A DNA stretch of 26,037 nucleotides from positions 1-26,037 of the IMG/VR virus record IMGVR_UViG_3300009518_000015. One strand, given 5' to 3'. Shown here piece after piece: positions 8 to 25,623 of the stretch; position 1 is the first letter of the stretch; every line of letters starts with the position of its first letter. The stretch is from a virus. A model generated the notes under the pieces. It was not told where the DNA came from. It saw only the letters and a list, made by a program, of their open reading frames with translations, and did no database searches. Position numbers and translations under genes: made by a program.

Positions 8-1126
8 ATGTACGAGAACTTTCAACGACAAGTAGTGGCATCCGCTGACTACGAGGAGAAGCTAAAGGACCTACCAAAGCTCTCCAAGAAACAGAAGATT
101 GGTCGCCTCGAAGCTATCCTTGCAGATAAGGGTAACGCGATGCGTCGAATCGGCCAGGGTATGATTGGTCCAATCCAGATTCGTCTACGCTATGAGGGTA
201 TTGTTCGCAACGTCCTTGTAGAGGATACGCTAGAGCGCGGTCCGCTTATGCCGTACGACATCCTGGACGACCTAGGCCGTGCGTATGTGCTTAACAGCAC
301 TGACGCAGAGGTCAAGATTACTCCGTTCGAGGGCAAGCAAGCATTCCCGACTTTGTTCAGGCTTGCTACTTTCCCCCGCATCCGCAAGGAGGACTTGTAT
401 TACCTCCGTGTGAACGCAGTCGAATATGCTCAGGACGAGTCTCGACAGGCTATTCAGAAGCAGGAGGACGCACGTCTAGTCCTACTTCTTGAGCAGTCTA
501 TTGTTGGACTCGGAACGGCACTAACGAACGCACAGGCTGGCGAAGGTCCAATCGGACTAGCACCAACTGGCGGTAGAGCAGTAGGAGTGGCATCAGGACC
601 AGAAGCCAACGTCAATGAACATACCGTTCTACTTGGCGAAGGTAACCCTCTGGAGCCTGCCGACTTCTACAACGCTGTTTCACAAATCGAAATCAACCAG
701 CTAGAGGCGCGTCGTGTGCTTGCCCACCCGGCAGACATTCGAGACCTCTATAACTGGGACTTGAACGTCACTGGATTCCGATTCAAGGACGAGGTATTCG
801 CAGGAGGCCGTATTACTAGCTTCGGCGAGTTCCAGATTCAGCGTTCGATTATCATCCCCCAGGGTGAGGTATTCCTCGCGGCTGAGCCAGAGTTCATCGG
901 GGTATTCCCTGTTATGTACTCTCTCGATGTTGAGGAGAATCACCAGGTAGAGCAGTTTATGAAGGGCTGGGTGCTCGACGAGATGATAGGAATGCTTGTA
1001 CTTAATCCGAGAGGACTCTCAAGGATTGTCAAGTCTAGCTCTAATGCAGCACCTGCAAAGCTCAACATCAGCGGCCTTGGAACAGGCGAAGGTGTTACGA
1101 GTGGCTCAGGAGAATGGCGTTTGTAG
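8..1126 (+). CDS. major capsid protein, HK97-fold type (5' end possibly cut)
   Basis: This 372-residue protein most likely forms the icosahedral head shell. The C-terminal half has the look of HK97-type capsid proteins: a long helix rich in Gln and Glu around residues 140-165 (the spine-helix position), then a beta-rich part with 'VLAHPADIRDLYNWD' and 'QGEVFLAAEPEFIGVFPV', ending in a 'GMLVLNPRG' segment. Its place at the head of a sheath/tube tail cluster fits. The frame is open to the window edge (codons CTG AAA precede the ATG), so an upstream start cannot be excluded and no ribosome binding site can be judged. The gene ends at a strong hairpin terminator and is followed by opposite-strand genes. 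The family call rests on pattern recognition; a comparison with HK97-fold models would settle it. Confidence 0.8.
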   Translation: MYENFQRQVVASADYEEKLKDLPKLSKKQKIGRLEAILADKGNAMRRIGQGMIGPIQIRLRYEGIVRNVLVEDTLERGPLMPYDILDDLGRAYVLNSTDAEVKITPFEGKQAFPTLFRLATFPRIRKEDLYYLRVNAVEYAQDESRQAIQKQEDARLVLLLEQSIVGLGTALTNAQAGEGPIGLAPTGGRAVGVASGPEANVNEHTVLLGEGNPLEPADFYNAVSQIEINQLEARRVLAHPADIRDLYNWDLNVTGFRFKDEVFAGGRITSFGEFQIQRSIIIPQGEVFLAAEPEFIGVFPVMYSLDVEENHQVEQFMKGWVLDEMIGMLVLNPRGLSRIVKSSSNAAPAKLNISGLGTGEGVTSGSGEWRL

Positions 1127-1146: not shown

Positions 1147-2406
1147 TTAAGAGCCGCCTTTGGGCGGCTCTTTTGTTTGGTCATACGGGAGAGAAGGCCA
1201 TTCACACATTGAACGTAAAATCTTCTTCTCTTTTTTGTTTCCTGTAACGGTCCAAAATCTATTCTTAGGCGTGACCTCATGACAAATTGACCCAGGAGTT
1301 TTCTTTCCTACGTTACGCGTAGATCCTGGTAAACGCCAATCCTTTGATGGCTTAGATTGTCCAGCGTAGTTAAAAGATAGAGCGCGATAGATACTACCAT
1401 CGTGCGACCTACCGTTTCGCGTGTCCGTAATTCCCGTATCGGCATAAGCAACTACGATATAAGGAGGAAGCGACTTTAGTGCTTTAGAGACTAGCCATGA
1501 AGCGGCACCAAAAGGTGCATCATCATGGCACCAAAGACGATTCAATTCTATTACCTTTGTAAGGTCTATAGAACAAATAGATTTCGTAATACGACCCGAC
1601 GAGGGACTACCAAAAATTACGATTCCTTGAGGATCTTTATCGCCGTCTTGGAACAAACCAAAAGCATAGGATGTATTAGGAGCCCGATGAAGATAATGCT
1701 TATCCTTAGCAATCTGTCGAGCTAATTGGTTTGTGATAGGAGTGACACTCCATCCTTTAGCAAATACGAATGTATATTTGTCTTTATTTTTATTATTACA
1801 TTGACTATGAGCTAATGCTACATTCTTTGGTATGTTTGGTCCATGCTTTGCAAAGGGATGAATGTGATGGATTACTTCAGATCGTAAATCGGGATATATT
1901 AAAGAAGGATCTACCCATTCTTTACAAAAATAGCATAGACCTTGGTCTCGATCACGTATTTGCTCGTCTGTATATGATTCGTGTCGTACGCGGTTCTTAC
2001 GAGCTAGACGCTTACGTCCAGCTTTTCGATGGGTCTCTGGTTTGCGTTTTCGGTAATCTCGCTTATTTTCCCGAATCGACTCTCGATGCGTTTCATTATA
2101 CTCGACTAGATTTTTAGCCCGTATCCGCCCTACACAATCGTGACACCTTGACTCGCGCCTATCTGGACGATCATATCGAAAAGGAAAATCATCAATCGGC
2201 TTGGTCTTTTTACATACAGTACAAGTTTGCTCCGTGCGACTCTCGTATTCAGCCTTCTTCTCAGCTACTTCGGCTTTGATTGGCGCATATTCCTTACGAC
2301 TATTCTCATTACGCCCCTCTATACACCAAGAATCCAATTTTCCGTTTTTCTTTATACGGAAGTTTTTATCCGGCTCATCTTGCAAGTGATAGGCGCACCA
2401 ATGCAT
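1147..2406 (-). CDS. HNH nuclease fused to Mom-like DNA-adenine modification domain
   Basis: This 419-residue protein has three parts. Residues 1-100 hold Cys pairs of zinc-ribbon type (C62/C65 and C88/C91). Residues 155-212 form an HNH nuclease: C158/C161, the HH pair 180-181, 'NVALAHSQCN' with H200 and C203. Residues 225-365 resemble the Mom family (phage Mu Mom; a GNAT-like fold that makes a carbamoylmethyl adenine): 'KHYLHR' near 236-241, 'ELNRLW' 287-292, 'ASWLVSKALKSLPP' 302-315, 'YADTG' 321-325, 'GSIYRALSFNYAG' 337-349. The start overlaps the stop of the upstream 98-residue gene as TAATG, so the two are probably co-translated from the promoter at 2742-2770. The coding sequence looks AT-richer than the capsid gene. 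Both domain calls come from motifs seen here; what the fusion does is unknown. It could be a homing nuclease attached to a Mom gene, or a modification enzyme with a nuclease arm. Confidence 0.75.
   Translation of the reverse strand: MHWCAYHLQDEPDKNFRIKKNGKLDSWCIEGRNENSRKEYAPIKAEVAEKKAEYESRTEQTCTVCKKTKPIDDFPFRYDRPDRRESRCHDCVGRIRAKNLVEYNETHRESIRENKRDYRKRKPETHRKAGRKRLARKNRVRHESYTDEQIRDRDQGLCYFCKEWVDPSLIYPDLRSEVIHHIHPFAKHGPNIPKNVALAHSQCNNKNKDKYTFVFAKGWSVTPITNQLARQIAKDKHYLHRAPNTSYAFGLFQDGDKDPQGIVIFGSPSSGRITKSICSIDLTKVIELNRLWCHDDAPFGAASWLVSKALKSLPPYIVVAYADTGITDTRNGRSHDGSIYRALSFNYAGQSKPSKDWRLPGSTRNVGKKTPGSICHEVTPKNRFWTVTGNKKEKKILRSMCEWPSLPYDQTKEPPKGGS
1150..1175 (+). terminator. Rho-independent terminator after the capsid gene
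   Basis: A perfect 8-bp stem (GAGCCGCC, 1151-1158, with GGCGGCTC, 1163-1170) closes a 4-nt loop TTTG and is followed by TTTTG. It lies 24 nt after the capsid stop codon. The stem also encodes the last residues and stop of the minus-strand HNH-Mom gene (stop at 1147-1149), so the same hairpin may end transcription from both sides. On the minus strand the following tract is only moderately T-rich. Confidence 0.85.
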
Positions 2407-2702
2407 TACAACATTTTCTCAAAAGAGGCAATGCCAGCCAAACCCATAATGACATCGGATGCATACTCCTTGTCATCAAGGTTATAAGTTATATCAACCA
2501 TTTCATCCCAAAGCTTTTGACCCTCGTCTTTTTCTGAGTCGTCTGCTTCCATAGCGCGCTGATATTTGTCTACAATATCTGCGGCTATCTCTCCGCCAAG
2601 TTTCTCGTTTTCTACGCGCGCTTCGTCCATTTCTGCACAACACTCGGGACAAAGTTGGTCGGTATGGTTGGTTGTTTGATCGTGGTCGTCATGAAACGGC
2701 AT
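2406..2702 (-). CDS. small acidic Cys-motif protein, paralogue of the upstream gene
   Basis: A 98-residue protein of unknown function. After a His/Asp-rich start it has 'LCPECCAEMDEARVENE' (a CxxC knuckle) and then an acidic helical region ending in 'ASDVIMGLAGIASFE'. Both blocks line up with the next gene upstream (2774-3097), which has 'MCPDCRAEMEQ' and 'AIDVILALSGIAV', so the two are tandem paralogues. A TTG at 2741 in the same frame was rejected as start because it lies inside the -10 box of the promoter; transcription should begin near 2735, leaving the ATG at 2702 as the first good start. Its stop overlaps the HNH-Mom start (TAATG). No strong Shine-Dalgarno sequence is seen. Confidence 0.65.
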   Translation of the reverse strand: MPFHDDHDQTTNHTDQLCPECCAEMDEARVENEKLGGEIAADIVDKYQRAMEADDSEKDEGQKLWDEMVDITYNLDDKEYASDVIMGLAGIASFEKML

Positions 2703-2741
2703 GATAGACTCGCTTTCGTATTGGAATTGTATCCAACCCAA

Positions 2742-2773: not shown

Positions 2774-3097
2774 TCAATCAGCAACGGCTATCCCCGACAA
2801 AGCCAGTATGACATCTATAGCCAAACCCGTCTCTACGGCTCTGAAGGCTAAACCGATGACTGTATCCCAATCATCTTGGCTCTCGGTCTCCTCGTGCTTT
2901 GCTCGGGCTTCTACGAGGATCTCTGCTAGCTCATGACCGCGTGCTCTATCGTCCTCAAATACTTGCTCCATCTCTGCGCGGCAATCGGGGCACATTTCGT
3001 CATCTAGGGCCTGAGTAGTCTCGTGCAGGTCAATGAAGGGGTGGCAGGCGGGACAATCTGGGTCGTTGCACTTTCCTGTTGCTGTCTGGGCGCTCAT
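2774..3097 (-). CDS. small Cys-rich protein, first of two tandem paralogues
   Basis: A 107-residue protein of unknown function. It carries two Cys clusters, 'KCNDPDCPACHPF' near the N terminus and 'MCPDCRAEME' further on, which could bind zinc, followed by a charged helical segment and a hydrophobic C-terminal helix 'AIDVILALSGIAVAD'. The ATG at 3097 is well supported by the Shine-Dalgarno sequence AGGAGG (3102-3107) four nt upstream and by a strong promoter (3126-3155). It resembles the gene that follows it (2406-2702), so a duplication is likely. No enzymatic motif is visible. Confidence 0.75.
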   Translation of the reverse strand: MSAQTATGKCNDPDCPACHPFIDLHETTQALDDEMCPDCRAEMEQVFEDDRARGHELAEILVEARAKHEETESQDDWDTVIGLAFRAVETGLAIDVILALSGIAVAD

Positions 3098-8612: not shown

Positions 8613-9041
8613 ATGATACGAGTTTGCTACAAATGCAAAAAACCGAAGGATTTGGAAACCGAGTTCTACAAACACCCTAACGGTAAGCAAGGGTATGACA
8701 CTAAGTGTAAGCAATGCGCCAAGGAAAATGCAAAAGGCGCTTATGATCGCACCCCTCAACGCACTCTAGAAAAAGTCTACGAACGACGACAGCGCAATCG
8801 TCAATTCATCTGGGATTACTATAATGCGCACCCCTGTGTTGATTGCGACGAGGACGATCCGCTTGTTCTAGAGCTAGATCATGTGCGAGATAAGAAGACG
8901 GCCAATGTTTCGCAACTCGTACATAACACACGATCCTTGAAAGTAATAGAAGATGAGATCGCCAAGTGTGAAGTCGTTTGCGCCAACTGCCATAAGCGTC
9001 GTACGGCCGTCACCCAAGGCTGGTACGCAGACGTGATTTAG
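8613..9041 (+). CDS. free-standing HNH endonuclease
   Basis: A 142-residue protein with an N-terminal zinc ribbon (C5/C8 and C32/C35, 'CYKCKKPKDLETEFY') and an HNH core: C75/C78, 'LELDHVRDKK' with D89-H90, and 'CEVVCANCHKRR' with C123, C126 and H127. This is the common small phage HNH family, usually a selfish homing nuclease, though some take part in packaging. It sits alone between two connector genes, with 51 nt before and 65 nt after it that hold nothing recognisable. No clear Shine-Dalgarno sequence precedes the ATG. Confidence 0.85.
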   Translation: MIRVCYKCKKPKDLETEFYKHPNGKQGYDTKCKQCAKENAKGAYDRTPQRTLEKVYERRQRNRQFIWDYYNAHPCVDCDEDDPLVLELDHVRDKKTANVSQLVHNTRSLKVIEDEIAKCEVVCANCHKRRTAVTQGWYADVI

Positions 9042-12774: not shown

Positions 12775-14394
12775 ATGGCATCCGTTGACCCAACATTCCA
12801 ATCCAGAGTCCGCGTAGGCGGAGTATTCACCGTCTTTACGTTCGGTGGATTTCCCATTACATTCTGTCAGCAGGTCTCTTACACATCGCCGCAGCCTGTA
12901 GGCGGCGGGATGTCGGCAATTCAGCCAATGGACGAGCCGTACCCTATCGAGATTATCACACCAGTCGCGGCGGGACCAGGACAAATCGTATTGAACATGT
13001 TCGAGCTTTTCGGTAGCGGTGGAACGGCATCTAAGGTCTGGGACCGACTAGGTCTTAGCCTCGGAGCCAAGAACGGTCCATTCGGTTCTGAAACTCCTGA
13101 AAACCAGAGTACCAACTTTAAACTCACTGGGCCAAATAACGGCGGCATCTTTATGGGCGCGGTAGACATCGTAGACATCTTCATTCGTCAGGCTCAAGCT
13201 TCACCCGCTAAGACAGAAATCGTCAAGATTATCCGTCCTCTTGGAGCGTCAGGACCTGCGGGTTCTCCGATTACTCCGTACACAGAGGAGTACCATGGAT
13301 GCTTTGCTGGCCATGAAACCTATATTACAGATGAAGGTATACGATCATTTGAGGATTCGGTTGGCGAGACCGTGCATGCGCTTACAAAGAGTGGATTTGT
13401 AACCTCAAAGGTCAATTATCTTGGAAAACAACCACTCAATCGTATCCGACTAAAGCCGATGAGCAAAATGCGCCATCCTAGCGGTGGTAATATGTGGCGT
13501 ACCGCACCAAAGAGCAATTTCTCAATTGAGATAGAAGCGACCCCTAACCATCGTTGGATCAAAGCTAATGGATCAATTACCGATAATCTTGCGGTTGGGG
13601 ACAGATTGATGGCTCATTGTAATACTATTGATACCTTTTCTGAGAGTTATCAAGATGGTATGCGTCACGGATTAGTCTTTGGCGACGGAACTCATGAGTA
13701 TCAACAAAAGACCAAGAAGCAACTACATAGACATGCACTGCGTATTTATGGCGACAGTATGAAGGCGGCCGCAAATGATCTCTTTGATGATATTCATATT
13801 GAGCAATCTAATGTTGGTCCCGAGAAGGGAATAGGTTATGGTGGAACTGCTATCGCCTATGCTACACAAAACTTCAAGGAGCTACCTGAGCGCACAGACA
13901 ATGCAGATTACTTGGCTGGGTTTATCGCTGGTTGGGGTATAGCGGATGCTCATTATCTTGAGTCGGGGCGTATTAAGATAAACTCAAGTAATCATGAAGC
14001 TCTTGAATGGCTGGAAGAATATGCAGCCTTTGCTGGATATGTGGTTATCGGTAAGGGAGAGGACCCAACCGATGAGACTAATTATGGTAAACGAACATCT
14101 CGTATGCGCTACGTAACATTAGCAGACGCTTCAACCGTTTGTTGGAAGGTTGATTCAATTGAAAGTACGGGTCATTCTGAGAATGTATATTGCCTCGATG
14201 TTCCCGACGAGCACGCCTTTACACTTTCTAACGGAGTTTACACAGGAAACTGCGTAATCACGGGCGTACAGGACGGCGAGCAGATTGCCGTAGGAACGAT
14301 GGAAGTGCTTAAGCAGGTGACTGTGTCGTTCAGGTACGTAACACGCAACTCGAATCCAAGTCTTGCCTTCCGCGTACGCGACAACCCTCTTTAG
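12775..14394 (+). CDS. tail tube protein interrupted by an intein
   Basis: The host protein is a T4 gp19-like tail tube subunit. Residues 1-175 and 493-539 join to give a 222-residue product in which 'EEYHG' is followed by 'CVITGVQDGEQIAVGTM' and a final strand 'KQVTVSFRYVTR', the conserved C-terminal pattern of tube proteins. Residues 176-492 are an intein. The gene follows the sheath gene by 9 nt. TATAGT lies 8 nt upstream of the ATG and there is no clear Shine-Dalgarno sequence. Without splicing the insertion would disrupt the tube subunit, so splicing is presumably essential. Confidence 0.88.
   Translation: MASVDPTFQSRVRVGGVFTVFTFGGFPITFCQQVSYTSPQPVGGGMSAIQPMDEPYPIEIITPVAAGPGQIVLNMFELFGSGGTASKVWDRLGLSLGAKNGPFGSETPENQSTNFKLTGPNNGGIFMGAVDIVDIFIRQAQASPAKTEIVKIIRPLGASGPAGSPITPYTEEYHGCFAGHETYITDEGIRSFEDSVGETVHALTKSGFVTSKVNYLGKQPLNRIRLKPMSKMRHPSGGNMWRTAPKSNFSIEIEATPNHRWIKANGSITDNLAVGDRLMAHCNTIDTFSESYQDGMRHGLVFGDGTHEYQQKTKKQLHRHALRIYGDSMKAAANDLFDDIHIEQSNVGPEKGIGYGGTAIAYATQNFKELPERTDNADYLAGFIAGWGIADAHYLESGRIKINSSNHEALEWLEEYAAFAGYVVIGKGEDPTDETNYGKRTSRMRYVTLADASTVCWKVDSIESTGHSENVYCLDVPDEHAFTLSNGVYTGNCVITGVQDGEQIAVGTMEVLKQVTVSFRYVTRNSNPSLAFRVRDNPL
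13300..14250 (+). mobile_element. LAGLIDADG-type intein in the tail tube gene
   Basis: A 317-residue in-frame intein. Block A is 'CFAGHETYI' with C176 as first residue; block B is 'EATPNHRWI' (T-x-x-H); two LAGLIDADG-like motifs are 'GLVFGDGTHE' (about 299-308) and 'LAGFIAGWGIADA' (380-392); block F is 'VYCLDVPDEHAFTL' (471-484); the C end is 'GVYTGN' followed by Cys 493. The usual penultimate His is Gly here, a known but less common variant. The DNA looks AT-richer than the exteins. The junctions are inferred from block A and the restored tube motif. Confidence 0.88.
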
Positions 14395-14979: not shown

Positions 14980-15281
14980 ATGACCTTCAGGGCGAGCTTG
15001 TCATGTGCTTACATGACGAGGAAAACCGAATCGAGAATGACAACGACCAAGTAGACCTTGAACGGTCAATGTTGATTTCCAATCCCGATATGTGGCGCGA
15101 GCTGTATGGCAAGGATTTGGTAGCCGATGGTCCTGGAATGCAGCTATGGCAGCCGACTACAGAGGAGGAGTTTGAGGAGATGATAAAGGCGTGGCAAGGA
15201 GAGGACTATACGCCGCCCGATATAGGCGCGCCCGATGGGATGCCCGAAGGATACAGCCACCTATTGATGAATGGCGGCTAG
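14443..15281 (+). CDS. tail assembly chaperone, long form by -1 frameshift
   Basis: If ribosomes slip back one base at TTTGGGT the product continues in the -1 frame from 14967 ('YPALNDLQGELVMCLHDEEN') to the TAG at 15279, giving about 279 residues. The added 104 residues are acidic ('TTEEEFEEMIKAWQGED') and end in 'LLMNGG'. This corresponds to lambda gpGT, the rarer form that contacts the tail tube. No separate start with a ribosome site is visible for the downstream frame, and it has no other evident way to be expressed. The last four bases overlap the stop of the convergent methyltransferase gene. Confidence 0.78.
14961..14993 (+). promoter_or_regulatory. -1 programmed frameshift signal
   Basis: The heptamer TTTGGGT (14961-14967) is read T-TTG-GGT in the zero frame and fits X-XXY-YYZ. 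After a 5-nt spacer comes a perfect 8-bp hairpin: GCCCTGAA (14973-14980), loop TGACC, TTCAGGGC (14986-14993). The zero-frame stop TGA (14977-14979) lies inside the stem. Position, spacing and gene context are those of the G/GT frameshift of tail chaperones. Confidence 0.8.
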
Positions 15282-15892
15282 ACGCCTGAATTATAATGTT
15301 GATTCCAATCGTATTCAGAATCTATTAACTTGGCGCGCTCGCGGATGTCTAGACCGTCGCCATCGGCCTCATCACCAAGCGAGTACCATTCAGGTTGTGA
15401 ACGGCGTGCAAATAACTCAAGTCGCGGAGCAGGATACATCTCCGCGACTTGATAGAGAGAATCTGGCTTTCGAGAATGTCCAAGGGTCTCGCAAAGAATG
15501 TTAATCATGTTAGTGCGCACGGCTTTGGCCTCTGGCTTTTGAGCCATAAGAATCGGCTCGACAGCCCCTCGAAAATGATAGCCAACTCCGTAAGCTGGCT
15601 TTGTATAGTCGCTTTTCTGGACCTTTACCCAGGCGAGTCCAGTCTTATACGTAAATCCCCAAGCGTCTATCACTCTTAACGCATCTGGCAAGAAAGGCAT
15701 CGTAGTCCAAAGCAGAAGTGTCGCATCTTCGTCGGTCCAATCATCCACAGGAAGTTCGCAAAGCGTGTCTGTTGATAACGCTGGATACTCCCAGTCGCCG
15801 CGTTCTGAACTAGTGGAGAAACCTGTTAGCTTTTTGTGATTGCTTGCCGCAGCATATGCCCACGGAGGATCGGCGATTATTGTCTTGAACAT
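15278..15892 (-). CDS. MT-A70-type DNA adenine methyltransferase
   Basis: A 204-residue protein beginning 'MFKTIIADPPWAYAAAS': the DPPW catalytic motif (residues 8-11) is that of MT-A70 family N6-adenine methyltransferases. 'ATLLLWTTMPFLPDALRVI', 'GFTYKTGLAWVKVQK' and 'GYHFRGAVEPILMAQK' are further family blocks. In phages such enzymes methylate the genome and can block host restriction. The gene has an extended -10 box 7 nt before its ATG and is convergent with the tail chaperone, sharing the bases CTAG as both stop codons. No recognition domain is evident, so the target sequence is unknown. Confidence 0.88.
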   Translation of the reverse strand: MFKTIIADPPWAYAAASNHKKLTGFSTSSERGDWEYPALSTDTLCELPVDDWTDEDATLLLWTTMPFLPDALRVIDAWGFTYKTGLAWVKVQKSDYTKPAYGVGYHFRGAVEPILMAQKPEAKAVRTNMINILCETLGHSRKPDSLYQVAEMYPAPRLELFARRSQPEWYSLGDEADGDGLDIRERAKLIDSEYDWNQHYNSGV

Positions 15893-16431: not shown

Positions 16432-16488
16432 GCTTATAGCATATCAGCTTCTAAGCTTCGTGTCAAGAAGCTCTGGACGCTTGTTCTA
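16429..16488 (-). repeat. promoter repeat unit 3
   Basis: The most divergent copy, one nt longer than units 1 and 2. It keeps TAGAAC, CGTCCAGAGC, TTGACA, TGATAT and ATGATC. Here the upstream gene does not stop at the TAG but reads into the unit, which encodes its last residues 'QASRAS'. Confidence 0.7.
16438..16466 (-). promoter_or_regulatory. promoter of repeat unit 3, leaderless layout
   Basis: TTGACA (16461-16466), 17-nt spacer, TATGCT (16438-16443), then 6 nt to the ATG at 16431. The TGA stop of the upstream HNH-type gene (16463-16465) lies inside the -35 box. Confidence 0.85.
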
Positions 16489-17041
16489 GCTGCTTTTCAA
16501 GATCGCGTATCTTAGCTTCTAGCGGGCCGACGGTGCGCTTATTTTTAGCTTGTTCTGATGAAGTTGCCCAACGACAATTCCCCGGTTCGTAGTGGCCTTC
16601 ATTGTTGATCCGATCAAGGGTTAGTCCTTCGGGTCGCTCACCCATGTCGGCGAGGAAGTTCTCAAAGTCTTTCCATCTATCGCAAACTTTGATTCCTCGT
16701 TCAATATAATCACATGCGTGAGCATAGATGGGGCTACAGCGCGATTTCATATTTTGCCAACTCCGATAAGTTGGGGTCCGGCTACGTCCGGAGGAATATC
16801 CATGGGTACGATTGGTTGAACGCCCTGATGCGTCATACTCACGCTTTAGACAACCGCAAGATTTCGTTTTGCCTTTTATCAATTCGGAACGTCCTTTGAG
16901 CTTTTCAACCCCGCAATCACAAAGGCACCACCATTGCGTCCATTCGGACTTTATTCCCGGCCCCTGACGAGTGGGTCCTTGACTCAGCACAATCAGTCTA
17001 CCAAACCGTTGCCCAGTAAGATCTTTTGCCTTTCCAGCCAT
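16463..17041 (-). CDS. HNH-type endonuclease with zinc ribbon
   Basis: A 192-residue protein of a common phage endonuclease family. It opens with 'LTGQRFGRLIVL', followed by Cys residues 39/41/43 and 62/64 ('CLCDCG', 'SCGC') of a zinc ribbon. A middle block is 'TYRSWQNMKSRC', and the HNH-like core is 'LDRINNEGHYEPGNCRWAT' (142-160). A helical tail follows. The second of two adjacent ATGs (17041) is preferred because it is 6 nt from an extended -10 box. It is the most upstream gene of island 3 and divergent from the tape measure gene. It may be a selfish element that carried or gathered the small genes. Confidence 0.82.
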   Translation of the reverse strand: MAGKAKDLTGQRFGRLIVLSQGPTRQGPGIKSEWTQWWCLCDCGVEKLKGRSELIKGKTKSCGCLKREYDASGRSTNRTHGYSSGRSRTPTYRSWQNMKSRCSPIYAHACDYIERGIKVCDRWKDFENFLADMGERPEGLTLDRINNEGHYEPGNCRWATSSEQAKNKRTVGPLEAKIRDLEKQLEQASRAS

Positions 17042-17047
17042 CATCTT

Positions 17048-24583: not shown

Positions 24584-25036
24584 ATGTCATTCTCACTCGA
24601 ACTCAAAAATGGTGATCTCGGTCTGAGTGGTACCTCGTTTGGTACTGTAGTGAATGCCGCTAAGCTACAACAAGACCTAGTATGCGCCATTTTGACGCCG
24701 CTAGGGTTTGAGGAAAATCATCCTGAATTTGGTTCTATCTTAGAGGAAGACCTAATCAATCCAGAAACCACTGTTATCGGCACAAAAGACTTCAATCATG
24801 CCGCCGCCGTCGTACGCTCTGAGCTATTGCGCATCTGTCAGAACTACCAAGCTCAGCAAATTGCACGAAATGAAAATGACGCAATCAAATTCGGCAAGGC
24901 GACTCTCACGCCAGGAGAGATTTTACTTCGTGTAGTGGGAGTAAACTTTGCGGCCGCAGAAGACCACCTTATGTGTAACCTTGCCCTTGAAATCGGCAAC
25001 GATACATTAGAACTCAACATCCCCGTTTCTCAATGA
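24584..25036 (+). CDS. gp25-like baseplate wedge protein
   Basis: A 150-residue protein with the gp25/GPW pattern: 'SGTSFGTVVNAAKLQQDLVC', 'ILTPLGFEENHPEFGSILEE' and a C-terminal beta segment. In T4-like and P2-like phages this protein belongs to the baseplate wedge and contacts the sheath. The expected partner, a Baseplate_J protein, follows after the inserted HNH gene. TGTAAT lies 6 nt before the ATG. Confidence 0.85.
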   Translation: MSFSLELKNGDLGLSGTSFGTVVNAAKLQQDLVCAILTPLGFEENHPEFGSILEEDLINPETTVIGTKDFNHAAAVVRSELLRICQNYQAQQIARNENDAIKFGKATLTPGEILLRVVGVNFAAAEDHLMCNLALEIGNDTLELNIPVSQ

Positions 25037-25623
25037 CCGATATACAAACCAATAGTAAAACGTGTAAGGTTTTGGAATGTGATCGCGAGAATTCGCGACA
25101 AGGTTATTGTGCTGCTCATTATGCCCGTGTTTATACTCATGGAAATCCTCAATTAGATAAGCCTTTGAAGCCGTCTAAACCGTGCCAAGCTAAAGGTTGT
25201 GAAAGAAGAGTAGGTAGAGAAAAATATTGTAAAACTCATCAACGACGCATATACAAGTATGGAACACCAAAAGAGAATGAGCCAATTTTATCTCGGTTTT
25301 ATGGCAACGGTAAGATCAACACGGGATATCTAGAAATTTGTTCTCCTCCAGAACACCCTTTTTATCCTAGTCAGAAAATTTTAGAACATCGACTAATAAT
25401 GTCAGATTATTTGGGTCGCACATTACAAAATAACGAGACAGTTCATCATAAGAATGGAAATAAGCGAGACAATCGCCTTGAGAACCTTGAGCTTTGGTCT
25501 TCCCGTCATCCGAGAGGTCAAAAAGTTGAAGATCAAATCGTATATGCTCTTGAGATATTAGAGCAATACCGTAATCAAATTTCAGATGATATGTATTTAC
25601 GTCTACGAAAGATAATTGAATAA
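25033..25623 (+). CDS. HNH endonuclease inserted in the baseplate operon
   Basis: A 196-residue protein with two copies of a small zinc motif (C11/C16/C26/H29 and C51/C56/C66/H69, each ending in '.R.Y..G.P') followed by an HNH core: 'EHRLIMSDYLGR' (119-130), 'VHHKNGNKRDN' (137-147) and 'RLENLELWS'. This pattern belongs to HNH homing endonucleases. It starts in an ATGA overlap with gp25 and ends in a TAATG overlap with the Baseplate_J gene. The coding sequence looks AT-richer than its neighbours, supporting recent arrival. Confidence 0.87.
   Translation: MTDIQTNSKTCKVLECDRENSRQGYCAAHYARVYTHGNPQLDKPLKPSKPCQAKGCERRVGREKYCKTHQRRIYKYGTPKENEPILSRFYGNGKINTGYLEICSPPEHPFYPSQKILEHRLIMSDYLGRTLQNNETVHHKNGNKRDNRLENLELWSSRHPRGQKVEDQIVYALEILEQYRNQISDDMYLRLRKIIE

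Follow-up and report, generated by a model that had tools for sequence, protein, structure and literature searches.

An HNH nuclease joined to a Mom-type DNA modification domain in a phage gene beside the major capsid gene

The window, a 26,037-nucleotide (26-kb) fragment of a large tailed phage, encodes next to its major capsid gene a protein in which an HNH nuclease is joined to a Mom-type domain. The first-pass annotation had read the gene in this way, and that reading is supported overall. From the domain assignments, the structural model and the comparison with related phages, we regard it as an even call that the gene is mobile and of homing type and encodes a bifunctional phage protein, in which a putative nuclease would be paired with a self-shielding modifier. 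The phage that carries it is of soil type; relatives with a shared capsid protein are up to 140-170 kb long, and among named phages Mycobacterium phage Myrna (54% capsid identity) and Rhodococcus phage Finch (52%) come closest.

Domain composition of the HNH-Mom protein

The gene, its parts and its upstream neighbours are:

1147..2406 (minus strand): HNH-Mom fusion gene, 419 aa, stop codon counted in the coordinates
2296..2406 (minus strand): N-terminal Cys/His ribbon, residues 1-37 (C4, H7, C28), from alignments
2122..2232 (minus strand): CxxC-CxxC ribbon of endonuclease VII type, residues 59-95 (C62, C65, C88, C91), from phrog_1035
1774..1938 (minus strand): HNH core, residues 157-211 (C158, C161, H181, N195, H200, C203, N204), from Pfam HNH
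1171..1752 (minus strand): Mom acyltransferase domain, residues 219-412, from Pfam Mom, PDB 8bv8 by sequence and fold, and alignment
2404..2408 (minus strand): TAATG, in which the stop of the 111-aa gene and the start of HNH-Mom overlap (sequence ...TTGTAATGCATTGG)
2406..2741 (minus strand): small upstream gene, 111 aa, with a single CPECC motif
2774..3097 (minus strand): small gene with Cys residues, 107 aa, sharing ~32% identity with the 111-aa one

A single unbroken reading frame of 419 aa was confirmed at 1147-2406, on the minus strand, which the first-pass annotation had not given. The chain runs from the Cys/His ribbon through the CxxC-CxxC ribbon and the HNH core to the Mom domain. The residues previously assigned to the nuclease (C158/C161, H180/H181, H200, C203) and the motifs assigned to Mom (KHYLHR, ELNRLW, YADTG and GSIYRALSFNYAG) all lie where they had been placed. 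A zinc ribbon had also been described; it is present, but as two N-terminal metal-binding regions (C4/H7...C28 and C62/C65...C88/C91) rather than one. The AlphaFold2 model of the protein has a mean pLDDT of 83, with a confident CxxC-CxxC ribbon region and a poorly modelled HNH loop (170-195). An assembly chimera was ruled out, since the gene is 100% identical in three other contigs (four near-identical contigs in all) and the fusion recurs in divergent phages.

The N-terminal half matches endonuclease VII in PHROGs (phrog_1035, 2.2e-15 over residues 11-215) and Pfam HNH (PF01844, E 4.8e-6 over residues 178-209, above the gathering cut-off). The predicted catalytic His, the middle Asn and the zinc knuckle of the HNH family are all present, and H181, N195, C158/C161, H200/C203 and N204 are kept in the divergent orthologues L147 and L157. 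Alignments showed that the N-terminal Cys/His ribbon is common to L147, L157, L162 and L166, and a search keyed on this ribbon found it in related phages only in this gene family, bar weak CxxC-ribbon matches. PADLOC returned no defence system for the window protein and only weak PtuB (HNH) matches for its relatives.

The C-terminal part falls inside the Mom family by every search that bears on it, and the first-pass assignment thus withstood the check that could have overturned it. Pfam Mom (PF25680) matches residues 219-354 with E 3.7e-21 (76.2 bits against a cut-off of 27.1), and PHROGs places Mom (phrog_1384) over residues 205-412 at 1.8e-32. A PDB sequence search with the window protein found a sole chain, phage Mu Mom (8bv8), and Foldseek with the AlphaFold2 model returned 8bv8_B as the top match (E 2.3e-11, TMt 0.66). 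None of the key Mom residues has been lost: window S303 is aligned with Mu S124, the residue whose S124A change the 8bv8 title in the PDB describes as an inactive mutant, and H58-Y59, R62, E108-L109, R111 and D149 of Mu, which are likewise family-wide, correspond to H237-Y238, R241, E287-L288, R290 and D323. By sequence and model, the C-terminal half of the window protein is a true Mom domain, a predicted acyltransferase.

The genes upstream of the fusion offer less. The first-pass annotation had taken the TAATG coupling to a Cys-rich small gene as a sign of a functional operon. The overlap is real, but the 111-aa gene has only three Cys and was found in no phage other than this one and the contigs nearly identical to it. 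The coupling is thus not conserved, and the operon argument is weak. The two small genes (2406-2741 and 2774-3097, minus strand) are paralogues with CPxC motifs, and of the relatives searched only the near-identical contigs of this phage have them. Com, the activator of Mu mom, is a four-Cys zinc finger of ~62 aa (PMC6483171); a Com-Mom operon was ruled out, since the 111-aa gene encodes no finger with four Cys and is itself not conserved.

Recurrence at the 3' flank of the capsid gene

The fusion lies tail-to-tail with the capsid gene, separated from it by 20 bp:

8..1126 (plus strand): major capsid protein gene (phrog_2522 major head protein, 5.4e-90)

Related contigs were gathered via this gene, so the comparison is biased to this phage group, and it covers only fragments of these phages. 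Among them HNH, HNH-Mom and HNH-GNAT genes turn up repeatedly at the 3' flank of the capsid gene. The search for other HNH-Mom fusions and their neighbours, which the first-pass annotation had proposed, found the fusion beside the capsid gene in L147 and L157 and its halves as neighbours in L345. In both L147 (58% identity, capsid 83%) and L157 (~40% identity, capsid 80%) the gene is directly 3' of the capsid gene on the minus strand, and the capsid-to-fusion distance is 20-55 bp across the window, L147 and L157. Between the window and L147 the HNH region is 54% and the Mom region 66% identical; neither half looks decayed, since the two diverge together.

Other relatives carry something else at this site. 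In four contigs with a 95% identical capsid (L134, L135, L137, L204) the fusion is absent and other genes occupy the site, and in L162 (capsid 96% identical) an HNH gene with a closely similar N-terminal ribbon stands there alone. Unrelated HNH genes occupy the site on the plus strand in L136, L142/L144 and L187. A crude pattern finds an HNH-like frame at the site in 8 of the 49 relatives with enough sequence, and a Pfam HNH match was obtained for 8/60 reading frames from the post-capsid region, where other accessory genes are found too. No Mom was detected at any other place in ~34 related contigs, indicating that Mom here always travels with the nuclease.

The fusion is thus patchy at one conserved site, present in some close relatives and absent in others, as is looked for in a homing gene. 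Location, patchy distribution, a switch of orientation (in L345, below) and the replacement by other HNH genes favour a mobile homing-type gene, as support from sequence comparison and not as proof; location alone is no proof of homing, because the stretch after the capsid gene is a hotspot for accessory genes in general. An exact empty-site junction or co-conversion tract was not seen among these contigs, the closest relatives of which carry other genes and are too diverged at the DNA level.

Two relatives depart from the simple fusion:

L345:2222-3758 (plus strand): TnpB-type gene (PF07282), between HNH and Mom, exactly on the domain boundary
L166:1062-2450 (minus strand): HNH-GNAT fusion, the C-terminal 160 residues of which are phrog_24928

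In L345, whose capsid shows 48% identity, HNH and Mom begin ~66 bp past the capsid gene and are read along the plus strand, so that their orientation with respect to the capsid is the reverse of that in the fusions. The HNH gene is 39% identical to the window HNH region and the Mom gene 55% to its counterpart. Because the residues flanking the TnpB gene match the L147 linker in length and a TTTCA repeat, read directly from the sequence, stands at both TnpB borders, the arrangement suggests a formerly continuous HNH-Mom gene that was probably split by a TnpB element. That element would be one mobile gene nested in another, with the HNH-Mom junction as its possible target; Rfam gave no RNA element match at the insertion.

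In L166 the same ribbon-endonuclease VII-HNH architecture as in the window is fused not to Mom but to phrog_24928, annotated as of 'unknown function'. The model of this domain (pLDDT 91) has a GNAT fold, and against the PDB Mu Mom ranks fourth by E-value (E 2.8e-3, TMq 0.60), behind generic GNATs. A profile comparison between phrog_24928 and Mom was weak (P 0.003, with controls at 0.027 for reversed and 0.09-0.8 for shuffled profiles); in that comparison an invariant Ser of phrog_24928 falls in the register of Mom S124. The family also has stand-alone members: that of Paenibacillus phage Lily immediately precedes two DNA methyltransferase genes, and others are found in Micromonospora pMLP1 and Salinibacter phage M8CR30-2. 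These data point to phrog_24928 as a putative DNA-modifying acyltransferase without proving it, and the locus offers a handle on this widespread phage family, found in some 390 viral stretches, as a candidate DNA modifier.

Possible roles of the nuclease and the modifier

Elsewhere in the window there are:

8613-9041 (plus strand), 16463-17044 (minus strand) and 25033-25623 (plus strand): further HNH nuclease genes between structural genes
12775-14394 (plus strand): intein (Intein_splicing, E 2.8e-6) in a structural gene after a sheath-like gene
15278-15892 (minus strand): MT-A70 adenine methyltransferase (E 2e-24)

The intein-bearing gene probably encodes the tail tube. L199 carries a homologue of the HNH gene at 8613-9041 in the corresponding position (49% identity), and the MT-A70 gene is a second potential adenine modifier beside Mom in this phage.

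In the reading that we prefer, the ribbons and the HNH core would bind and cut DNA, most likely that of competing phages, at the major capsid gene or close to it, or else other DNA that lacks the modification. Mom, joined to them, would move an acyl-derived group onto adenines of the phage's own DNA, and the modified DNA should then resist host restriction enzymes and, by extension, the attached HNH nuclease. A gene bearing attack and shield in one chain could spread among related phages by inserting beside the capsid gene. Any of the three roles offered by the first-pass annotation may apply: a homing nuclease that guards its site, a self-contained unit of modification and cleavage, or an attack on unmodified DNA. 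This self-shielding mobile nuclease is favoured because one nuclease platform pairs with two different GNAT domains; the two GNAT partners, together with the Mom-REase fusions of jumbo phages, suggest that nuclease and modifier are selected as a pair.

The main rival keeps the homing HNH and makes Mom a passenger, a beneficial anti-restriction cargo without control of the nuclease, with self-tolerance achieved through altered or disrupted target sites, as in other free-standing homing nucleases of phages. It is a serious possibility, if in our view a somewhat doubtful one. HNH alone (L162) and the unrelated HNH genes without Mom show that a nuclease is tolerated at the site without a modifier, and the three further HNH genes and the intein mark this phage as rich in homing-type elements. 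Since nearly all Mom enzymes in the loci surveyed are stand-alone anti-restriction proteins, the Mom half may serve anti-restriction only. Against a passenger, the recurrence of one nuclease platform with two GNAT domains and the jumbo-phage Mom-REase favour a selected pair over accident. We think it unlikely that the ribbon and HNH half is a DNA-binding or targeting module with little or no cutting, which would make the protein an anti-restriction modifier: ribbons and HNH folds do bind DNA, and Mom has other DNA-binding partners beside it, such as the ParB-like genes of Arthrobacter phage LeeroyJ and of actinobacterial contigs, but the HNH catalytic and zinc residues are all kept in the divergent orthologues, which is unexpected had cutting been lost. 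Recent fusion by chance, or decay of the gene, with no joint function in either case, would agree with the rarity of the arrangement, as no HNH-fused Mom was found elsewhere in ~88 + 59 Mom loci (some overlap; ~145 in all), and with the L345 halves separated by a TnpB gene; it is very improbable given that the domains are fused in three phages down to ~40% identity with both conserved, and that the gene is identical in four contigs.

Free-standing homing nucleases must not cut their own genome. A bolder form of the self-shielding nuclease, which we put forward tentatively as possible, is a one-gene self-immune homing weapon, the HNH of which would cut only unmodified competitor or host DNA, and in which phages would swap Mom for phrog_24928. 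If so, a fused base modifier would be a general chemical answer to self-cutting by homing nucleases, a homing gene so equipped would act like a restriction-modification unit, and phrog_24928 would be a second family of DNA-base acyltransferases.

Comparison with known systems

A search with PF25680 of ~800 genomes from two bacterial phyla gave no HNH-fused Mom, and no mention of an HNH-Mom fusion was found in a literature search largely confined to papers free of subscription. The long frames of L334 and L416, read by eye, do not look like nuclease fusions; that of L416 (846-2885, plus strand) is 679 aa long and opens with a Mom domain, which is followed by a C-terminal extension of 477 aa. 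A second recurring Mom partner is a ParB-like gene, with Mom directly or nearly directly downstream of it in actinobacterial contigs and in Arthrobacter phage LeeroyJ (L324:597-2085; L325:1375-3050, minus strand; L323:1178-2561). In Mycobacterium phages Pita2 and PSullivan the Mom match is split over two annotated genes (L007:3998-4655) and mom seems to be broken by a frameshift; in Ohno789 it is whole.

Phage Mu Mom (8bv8, a methylcarbamoylase, PF25680) belongs to the same family as the window Mom by profile, sequence and fold. The Mu enzyme is a separate protein under the control of Com, a zinc-finger activator; the window Mom makes up the C-terminal half of a chain with a nuclease at its front, and the small gene coupled to it does not resemble Com. 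Free-standing HNH homing endonucleases of phages (phrog_338 and the endonuclease VII-like phrog_1035) share the nuclease core and, like the window gene, lie beside a conserved structural gene and are patchy among sister phages; unlike the window protein, they have no DNA-modifying domain. Type II and IIG-like restriction-modification enzymes unite modification and cleavage in one system or chain, as predicted for the window protein, but they use methyltransferases and are mostly host-encoded, whereas the modifier here is a predicted GNAT acyltransferase of a phage. A precedent comes from jumbo phages: in their Mom-REase proteins (Iyer et al. 2021, PMC7824862) a phage Mom is likewise fused to a nuclease and the modification is predicted to shield the phage while the nuclease attacks other DNA; the Mom genes of jumbo phages RaK2 and AS-szw, the two inspected, are stand-alone. 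Judged by their published description, the jumbo fusions carry a REase-fold nuclease, and that of the window is of the HNH/endonuclease VII type. Given this precedent, the window fusion is a variant of the same theme; new in it is a different nuclease class, HNH, joined to Mom in a homing-like setting.
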